A stretch of 64,000 nt of DNA from a bacterium. GTDB taxonomy: Bacteria > CG2-30-53-67 > CG2-30-70-394. The notes beneath the pieces are model-generated. The model did not search any database and was not told the DNA's origin. It saw nothing but the letters and a program-made list of their open reading frames with translations. The DNA lies in NCBI GenBank assembly GCA_024278555.1, contig JAJRSX010000183.1:9310-73309 (forward strand), written 5' to 3'. Shown here piece after piece: positions 20,536 to 30,977 of this stretch. The position numbers were made by a program, and so were the translations under genes. Position 1 is the stretch's first letter; each line of letters opens with the position of its first letter.

Positions 20536-22452
<1,917 letters not shown>

Positions 22453-22694
22453 GCTCTCTCCTTGGTTCGTCGGTCGGATGCAAAAAGGTCTACGGGGTCA
22501 ATGCTTGAACGGGAGCGAGACGGTCATCCGCCGCTCCCGCAATGGAATATGGGGACGCTCGGGTGGAGGCGCTACCCCCCGGCTCGCGGCGCGAGTTCGG
22601 GGGCTCTCAGCTTTTCGTTTTCAGCAACCGGCTTTCAGCGCACGGCGCTTCGAGTCGACTCCGTAGGTGTCGCGTGGTCGTCGCCGGAAGGGGC

Positions 22695-23276
22695 TCACTT
22701 CCGGCACACCAACACCATCGACGGGCGCAGGAGGCGGTCGTGGAGGAGGTAGCCGCGTTGGAGCTCATCGGCCACCTGGCCCGCCTCCACCGTGTCCGAG
22801 GCGGTCTCGCCGACCGCCTCGTGGAGGTTCGGGTCGAAGGGGGCGCCCACCGCCTCGATCGGGGTGACCCCGTGGCGCTTGAGGGTGTCGAGGAGCAGCT
22901 TGAGGGTCATCTCCACCCCGGTCGCCAGGGCGGCGTCGGCGTCCGCCGCGGCACCCTCGTTGTGGTGGGCCAGGGCGCGTTCCAGGTTGTCCACCGACTC
23001 TAGGAGGTCGCGTGCCAGCTTCTCGTTGGCGTAGCGCATGAATTCCGCCTTCTCCCGGGCGGTACGCTTTTTGTAGTTGTCGAGCTCGGCGCTCACCCGC
23101 AGGAGCCGTTCGTAGGTCTCCCGGGCCTGGCGCTCGATCTCCTCCTCGCGCGACGGCGCGGTCTCGTCGTCGTTCACCGCGGTGACCTCGATGTCCGGCA
23201 TCCCCTCGGCGGCCACGTCGAGGGTCTCGGGGGTGAGGTCACTCTCTTCGTCACTCGGCTTTGGCTGGGTGCTCAT
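22695..23276 (-). CDS. grpE: GrpE nucleotide exchange factor
   Basis: This 193-residue protein has an acidic N-terminus and a long coiled coil (REEEIERQARETYERLLRVS) leading into the conserved LDNYKKRTAREKAEFMRYAN. The C-terminal beta domain has GVTPIEAVGAPFDPNLHEAV. It releases ADP from DnaK. Its start overlaps the hrcA stop (ATGA). Confidence 0.96.
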   Translation of the reverse strand: MSTQPKPSDEESDLTPETLDVAAEGMPDIEVTAVNDDETAPSREEEIERQARETYERLLRVSAELDNYKKRTAREKAEFMRYANEKLARDLLESVDNLERALAHHNEGAAADADAALATGVEMTLKLLLDTLKRHGVTPIEAVGAPFDPNLHEAVGETASDTVEAGQVADELQRGYLLHDRLLRPSMVLVCRK

Positions 23277-24310
23277 ACGCCTTGTAGCTTCCTTTCCACC
23301 GTCCGTGAGGTGAACTCCACCAAGGGAATTACCCGCGAGTAGTCCATTCGCCGCGGGCCGATGACGCCGACCGCGCCCAGGACCCGCCCTTCGATACCGT
23401 ACTTGGCCGCCACCACGCTGCAGTCCACGTTATTCCCGAGCAGGGTCTCGGCGCCGATGAAGACCTGCACCCCCTCCGCCTCCACCACCCGGTCGAGGAT
23501 GGTGAGGAGGTTGCGCCGCTCCTCCAGGGCGGCGAGGAGCTCGCGGGCGCGGTCGATGTCGTCGAACTCCGGCTCGTCGAGGAGGGTGCTCGCTCCCTCC
23601 AGAAAGAGGAGGTGGGTCGCCGAATCGGCGGTCAGTTGCTCCTCGCGCACGGCCTCCATGATTAGGTGGTAGTAGACCTCTCGTGTCTTGTGCAGCTCCC
23701 GCTCCGCCCGCTGTCGTACCGCCTCCAGGGTGAGGCCGTGGAACTGCTCGTTGAGGTGGCGGGAGATGCGCGCCAGCTCCCTCTCCGAGACGTCACGGTC
23801 GGTGTGGAAGATGCGATTCTGCACATAATTGGAACCGCTCACCAGGATGGCAAGGATGCGATGGCGGTCGAGACGGACGAGCTCGATGTGCTCCAGGACC
23901 GTCTCCCCGAGACACGGGGCGGAGACCAGCCCCACGTGGTGGGTGAGGCCGGAGAGGAGCCGGGAGGAGGAGGCGAGGAGCCCCTCCACCCCGTGGTCGG
24001 TGGGGGGGGCGGCGATGATCTTGCGCTCCGCCTCCGACGGCCCCTGGGTGGAGAGGAGGGTGTCGACGTAGAGGCGGTAGCCGAGGTCGGTGGGGACGCG
24101 ACCGGCGGAGGCGTGGGGCTGGGTGATGAGGCCGATCTCGGCGAGGTCGGCCATCACGTTGCGCACCGTGGCGGCGCTCACCTTGATGCCGTGGCGGCGC
24201 ACCACGGTGCGCGAGCTCACCGGCGCCGCGGTGACGATATAGTCCTGAACGATCGCCCTGAGGATCGCCTGGTCACGCGGCTCGATTTCTGGAGTCTCCA
24301 TGTTTTTCAA
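23273..24310 (-). CDS. hrcA: HrcA heat-inducible transcription repressor
   Basis: This 345-residue protein has an N-terminal winged-helix domain (RDQAILRAIVQDYIVTAAPV, then SAATVRNVMADLAEIGLI) and a C-terminal GAF-like domain ending RMDYSRVIPLVEFTSRTVE. HrcA normally represses groE/dnaK operons through CIRCE elements. I found no convincing TTAGCACTC-N9-GAGTGCTAA copy upstream of hrcA here, so control of this operon may act elsewhere or use a diverged site. It is the first gene of the leftward operon. Confidence 0.96.
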   Translation of the reverse strand: MKNMETPEIEPRDQAILRAIVQDYIVTAAPVSSRTVVRRHGIKVSAATVRNVMADLAEIGLITQPHASAGRVPTDLGYRLYVDTLLSTQGPSEAERKIIAAPPTDHGVEGLLASSSRLLSGLTHHVGLVSAPCLGETVLEHIELVRLDRHRILAILVSGSNYVQNRIFHTDRDVSERELARISRHLNEQFHGLTLEAVRQRAERELHKTREVYYHLIMEAVREEQLTADSATHLLFLEGASTLLDEPEFDDIDRARELLAALEERRNLLTILDRVVEAEGVQVFIGAETLLGNNVDCSVVAAKYGIEGRVLGAVGVIGPRRMDYSRVIPLVEFTSRTVERKLQGV

Positions 24311-30115: not shown

Positions 30116-30520
30116 CTACCCGTCGATGCAGTCGTACGGCTTCGGCAGGCCGGCAAACTTGGTGCCCTGGAAGGCCGGCCCCTTGGGGAAGAGCTCGTAC
30201 AGGTGGTCGCGGTCGAGCTTCTCGTCGCCCCACTCCGCGCGCAGGTGGCGCAAGAGGATGCGGACATTGGGGGAGATGAGGTACTCGGCGTAGTAGCGGC
30301 GCAGGTAGTCGAGGATCCGCCAGTGCTCCTCGGTGAGGGCAATCCCGTCGAGGTGGGCGAGGACCGCGGCGATCTCCGGCGTCCACTGGTCTCGCTTGAG
30401 CATGTAGCCGTCATGGTTGGTCTCGACGGTCATGCCGTGCATGGTGATCTCTTTGCCGTGCGGGGTCGGGCGGACGGTGACCTTGCCGGCGGGGGTGTTG
30501 AGCGTTGCGGTGGTGGACAT
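30116..30520 (-). CDS. DsrC/TusE-family sulfur carrier-like protein
   Basis: This 134-residue protein has the DsrC/TusE fold signature: DGYMLKRDQWTPEIAAVLA, then EEHWRILDYLRRYYAEY and the C-terminal AGLPKPYDC. The near-terminal cysteine (CysA) is present, but the position 11 residues upstream (CysB in true DsrC) is Thr in GTKFAG. The protein is therefore TusE-like or RspA-like rather than a classic two-cysteine DsrC. Three residues (IDG) follow the cysteine instead of the usual one. It starts 10 bp after the selenoprotein gene and is probably cotranscribed with it. Confidence 0.85.
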   Translation of the reverse strand: MSTTATLNTPAGKVTVRPTPHGKEITMHGMTVETNHDGYMLKRDQWTPEIAAVLAHLDGIALTEEHWRILDYLRRYYAEYLISPNVRILLRHLRAEWGDEKLDRDHLYELFPKGPAFQGTKFAGLPKPYDCIDG

Positions 30521-30530
30521 GGCGGTCTCC

Positions 30531-30770
30531 TCAAGGTTGGGGGTTGTGTCCGAGGGCCTCGATCCGTGCCGCCACCTCCCCCTCTTCGGGAAAACGGCCC
30601 GTGGTGCGCTTGGAGAAGAGGAGCTCCCCGTTGACGGCCACCTCGAAAACCCCCCCGTTGCCGCGCACCAGCTCGGGGGTGGCTCCGAAACGGTGCTCCA
30701 GCTCGGTCGCCAGCCTGGCGGCCCGGGGGCGGTAGTTTCACTGGCCGCAGTAGAGGATCTCGATCTTCAA
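30531..30770 (-). CDS. SelW/Rdx-family selenoprotein with in-frame UGA (Sec)
   Basis: Reading through one TGA at 30738-30740 gives a 79-residue thioredoxin-like SelT/SelW/SelH protein. Codons 1-11 read L-K-I-E-I-L-Y-C-G-Q-Sec, followed by NYRPRAARLATELEHRFG and VRGNGGVFEVAVNGELLFSK. The CxxU motif sits exactly where the family has its redox CxxC. A TTG start (30770) preceded by GGAG fits the family's usual N-terminus; in-frame ATGs lie further upstream. A small hairpin with a GGC loop follows the UGA at SECIS distance. If the UGA were a stop, the conserved downstream part would be unexplained. Standard gene callers would miss or truncate it. Confidence 0.85.
30708..30740 (-). promoter_or_regulatory. 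Candidate bacterial SECIS element and Sec UGA codon
   Basis: On the minus strand the UGA (30740-30738) is followed by CGCCA-GGC-TGGCG, a five-bp stem with a G-led loop whose apex is 23-25 nt after the UGA. This meets the known constraints for bacterial SECIS elements (loop within about 16-37 nt, G in the first two loop bases). It would recruit SelB and tRNA-Sec. Confidence 0.6.
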
Positions 30771-30977
30771 GGGTTGGCTCCACGGTGGATCTCGGACTCG
30801 GTGTGGAGAAAACATACCAAAAAACATAGAGATTGTCCGTTGATCCCGTTGCAGTCCTACCTTGGCCTTCGAATTCTTGCCTGACTGAATTGCCTGGGGC
30901 ATGGTGCCGACCCTTTGACCTCGTGTTGGTTTTGACCCATCTCTATAGTTTGCTGTGTCTAAAGGAGGGCCTCATCC

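Follow-up and report, generated by a model that had tools for sequence, protein, structure and literature searches.

The locus lies on the minus strand at positions 30770-30531 of the window, the term used here for the whole 64,000-nucleotide stretch of DNA that was analysed. A single reading frame of 79 residues runs from TTG at 30768-30770 to TGA at 30531-30533, and the only in-frame stop ahead of that terminal codon is a TGA at 30738-30740. The read-through protein, LKIEILYCGQUNYRPRAARLATELEHRFGATPELVRGNGGVFEVAVNGELLFSKRTTGRFPEEGEVAARIEALGHNPQP, places this internal TGA at the fourth residue of a C-G-Q-U motif, corresponding to the second redox residue. The features of the locus, all on the minus strand, are as follows.

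30778-30781, minus strand: GGAG, a Shine-Dalgarno-like sequence 7 nt upstream of the TTG start, read from the sequence
30531-30770, minus strand: predicted selW-like (Rdx family) selenoprotein gene of 79 residues, with matches to PF10262, NF041051 and TIGR02174
30738-30740, minus strand: in-frame TGA, predicted to be read as selenocysteine (Sec) in CGQU from its conserved column and the Sec machinery of the genome
30708-30720, minus strand: SECIS-like hairpin with a 5-bp stem, a GGC loop and 22 nt from TGA to loop, covarying across homologues and not significant alone
30116-30520, minus strand: one-cysteine DsrC/TusE-family gene, 10 bp downstream of selW, with matches to PF04358 and TIGR03342; kept without selW in the sister genome G001

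A preliminary description had placed the TGA at the second redox residue of an otherwise continuous SelW-like frame, and both its coordinates and the continuity of the frame proved correct. The motif (C8-G-Q-U11) is near the N terminus and is aligned with that of the family. TTG at 30768-30770 is most likely the start codon, because homologues begin there. A mechanical ORF caller presents the intact gene as a 54-residue fragment (ORF 30738-30902) that ends at the TGA amid overlapping spurious frames, much as had been expected of standard annotation, and such escape has already been published for the family.

The read-through protein exceeds all three curated cut-offs of the family models, with no difference seen: 78.4 bits for Pfam PF10262 Rdx (cut-off 22.6), 93.6 bits for NCBIfam NF041051 'SelT/SelW/SelH family (seleno)protein' (SelTWH_Campy; cut-off 88) and 66 bits for TIGR02174 CXXU_selWTH (cut-off 34.2). 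Both halves of the split frame fit the SelT/SelW/SelH family, as was originally suggested; the conserved GGVFEV, FSK and GRFPEEGE blocks are all located after the TGA. Solved SelW proteins also resemble the read-through protein by sequence (2p0g, E 3e-9; 2npb, E 4e-6), and similarity to mammalian selenoprotein W (2npb) and to the bacterial SelW-related structures (2p0g, 2ojl and 2fa8) is detectable over residues 2-73. On this similarity the product would be expected to adopt a thioredoxin-like fold.

The genome that holds the window (3.06 Mb in 211 contigs, estimated 100% complete) encodes tRNA-Sec (77.2 bits against a cut-off of 47, with the anticodon given as TCA by ARAGORN), SelB (326 bits), SelA (541 bits) and SelD (357 bits). 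All four of selA, selB, selC and selD, whose absence had been named as an argument against decoding of the TGA, are thus present. The SelD gene itself carries one in-frame TGA, within a stretch that reads S-D-C-A-G-U-A-S-K from the DNA. Seven of seven relatives of the same class have tRNA-Sec above cut-off. In six of them the SelD gene contains an in-frame TGA; from the remaining one, G006, only the C-terminal half of SelD was recovered. Sec decoding is therefore a property of the class. Formate dehydrogenase was searched for as another possible Sec gene; its full-length Sec type is present in class relatives and was not found in this genome. Judged from the machinery and the family together, Sec would be inserted in this organism.

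Conservation of the TGA was assessed in family loci drawn from scans of representative genomes and from relatives, of which 50 have a readable motif, this gene included. The second redox position is TGA at 44 of the 50 and cysteine (TGC or TGT) at the remaining six; counting the other loci alone, TGA occupies the same column at 43/49. The hosts, by genome titles, are proteobacterial, firmicute, chloroflexal, planctomycete, verrucomicrobial and others. Alignment with SelW/Rdx homologues, as had been proposed, thus finds Sec or Cys in the TGA column at every locus, which for practical purposes rules out both a chance stop and a sequencing error.

Two of the homologues have TGA at both motif positions, with the motifs UQQU and UGMU. 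They come from unrelated records, a Chloroflexi MAG (L030:4001-4213) and the Verrucomicrobia single-cell-type genome AG-313-K16 (L060:4001-4213), and suggest a double-Sec form of SelW; the SelW-like family has been listed as CxxU, and UxxU has been reported only for a Prx-like family (PMC2398784). Separately, the class relative G007 carries a Cys form (CNTC; G007:C9, L069 / L089:4312) whose hairpin, GGCCA-GTC-TGGCC, occupies the SECIS register. This hairpin is possibly left over from a Sec-to-Cys change, and Sec decoding persists in the genome.

The hairpin at the locus under study is CGCCA-GGC-TGGCG (30720-30708). Taken by itself, this copy is no better than chance: its single-sequence folding energy is no better than that of shuffles (z about 0.2 to 0.8), and an equally good G-loop hairpin occurs in 20% of synonymous recodings of the gene, which is not significant alone. 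When the best G-loop hairpin was sought at Sec loci in any register, the shift against synonymous recodings was only weak (median p 0.13). When the register is fixed across 42 Sec loci, 218/252 cells are paired versus 159±6 under synonymous recoding (z 10.1, an approximate value because the null uses simple base-composition weighting). A register four bases off is also over its null (z 5.4) and far under the true one. Among 38 aligned loci the covariation score is 0.471 versus 0.182±0.024 in shuffles, with none of 500 shuffles as high, and it reaches at most 0.231 when the hairpin is slid to other registers; four of the six pairs show changes on both sides. At the outer end of the family stem most loci have a C-G pair, and this copy has C-A. 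The significance of the hairpin therefore derives from fixed-register pairing and covariation at the level of the family, not from this copy alone. The claim of a hairpin with a G-led loop at SECIS distance accordingly stands as a SECIS-like element whose register is conserved in the family and whose pairs covary strongly. A minimal hairpin of 5/6 bp with an invariant loop G has been described in Epsilonproteobacteria (PMC4607533).

The frame, the family, the Sec machinery, the conserved UGA column and the covarying hairpin together support the selenoprotein reading, and we are highly confident that 30770-30531 (minus strand) encodes a bacterial SelW-like selenoprotein (Rdx, thioredoxin-like fold) in which UGA is decoded with a downstream hairpin. 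The hidden selenoprotein of the preliminary description is in this respect upheld, with machinery present, a conserved Sec/Cys column and a covarying SECIS-like hairpin. In the mechanism that we propose, SelB with Sec-tRNA(Sec) would decode the UGA at 30738-30740, aided by the hairpin just downstream. The product would be a small cytosolic thiol oxidoreductase, whose Cys8 and Sec11 may be able to form a selenenylsulfide. The function of the SelW-like family is described as unclear, probably redox (PMC1088965), and a redox activity of this member may be expected by analogy with the family.

The DsrC-like gene (30520-30116, minus strand) begins with ATG at 30520. The spacing of 10 bp from selW, the family match and the single cysteine, all reported previously, were verified: the protein scores 123 bits with PF04358 (cut-off 24.9) and 124 bits with TIGR03342 (cut-off 53.5), and its cysteine occupies the sulfur-binding cysteine position, followed by I-D-G. 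The conserved cysteine of the DsrC/TusE family is the penultimate residue (PMC3397948); the aligned cysteine here is fourth from the end, as in the sister genome, whose tail is identical. A threonine stands where the second cysteine of dissimilatory DsrC is expected, 11 residues before the first (TKFAGLPKPYDC versus CKIAGLPKPTGC in the canonical paralogue). The one-cysteine paralogue at 30116-30520 was seen with its non-standard PYDCIDG tail in the sister genome as well, and was not seen in the remaining six class members that were searched. Another contig of the genome carries dsrA together with a canonical two-cysteine DsrC. Two dsrA genes about 4 kb apart, with 88% identical protein (G000:C162:17628-18782 and 22447-23595; L091 and L092), share their contig with the canonical dsrC.

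It had been proposed that a selenium-based thiol relay could act on the DsrC-like carrier, such that the SelW-like protein would be a dedicated reductase of the adjacent one-cysteine protein. The two genes lie on the same strand at close spacing, both products are thiol proteins, and a Dsr sulfur pathway, including dsrA and a canonical two-cysteine DsrC, is encoded in the genome. Against this, no DsrC-family gene was detected near selW at the 47 other SelW loci (stretches up to 4 kb each side), so that the adjacency is found in this genome only among the 48 loci searched. A search for a recurrent selW gene neighbourhood found shared neighbours essentially limited to close relatives, and a literature search found no SelW-DsrC link. 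The sister species G001, of the same genus, keeps the same dsrC paralogue intact (84% nucleotide identity) beside a truncated selW remnant at the syntenic acs-dsrC locus:

L083:1116-1440 (G001:C177): selW remnant with start, CGQU and hairpin deleted and the 3' end frameshifted; adjoining dsrC intact

The relay, for which adjacency in a single genome is all that speaks, is thus not supported, and we consider it improbable. A little less probable again is a variant in which the SelW-like selenoprotein and the tailed one-cysteine DsrC paralogue form a genus-specific selenium-sulfur exchange pair that was secondarily lost in the sister species. The dsrC-like gene is probably co-transcribed with selW by position only.

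In the G001 remnant a deletion of about 148 bp has removed the start codon, CGQU and the SECIS hairpin, and the last ~110 bp of selW are left. The genome retains tRNA-Sec and Sec-type SelD. Decay after the TGA in close homologues, put forward earlier as a sign against Sec, is not what is seen in G001, where the deletion amounts to loss of the gene as a whole, not to toleration of a stop. In the same genus no intact selW orthologue was found from which purifying selection could be measured, the copy in G001 having been lost.

This loss, which shows that selW is dispensable in the genus, could conceivably favour a pseudogene at the present locus, namely a Cys-type Rdx gene disrupted when TGC or TGT mutated to TGA, and the Cys form in G007 points the same way. 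Such an origin is nonetheless very unlikely given that TGA recurs in the same column at most of the other loci, that the remaining frame is unbroken and keeps every family block, that the genome has the Sec machinery and that the hairpin sits in the family register. Least credible is a TGA created by sequencing or assembly error: single-base errors are possible in principle in a draft of 211 contigs, but it is very unlikely that a random error in a Sec-decoding genome would hit the one column that is TGA in most of this family.

The selenoprotein at the locus belongs with the bacterial SelW-like selenoproteins described previously (PMC1088965, PMC2398784, PMC1794560, PMC4607533), which are of the same family, have the CxxU motif at the same position and likewise carry a bacterial-type SECIS directly after the UGA, the Sec form being common and the Cys form rare. 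The locus differs from them only in its host lineage and neighbouring gene, and the protein shows no departure from the family. In mammalian SelW the SECIS is in the 3' UTR (PMC1088965, on eukaryotic SECIS), whereas the hairpin here lies within the coding region. The SelW-like CxxU proteins were reported as the most abundant family of the Sargasso Sea set, with 48 genes (PMC1088965); they have been counted across sequenced genomes (PMC1794560), were one of the two selenoproteins found to be most widely distributed in the GOS set, with 427 sequences (PMC2398784), and have also been treated in Epsilonproteobacteria (PMC4607533). Neither the family, known in bacteria since 2005, nor its habit of escaping annotation is new (PMC1088965, PMC1794560, PMC2398784, PMC4607533).

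The selW-like gene is an intact, ordinary further member of this known family. It extends a widespread selenoprotein family by one lineage and again illustrates how gene callers lose such genes, and the remnant in G001 is a clear case of recent selenoprotein gene loss with Sec decoding kept; none of these is new in kind.
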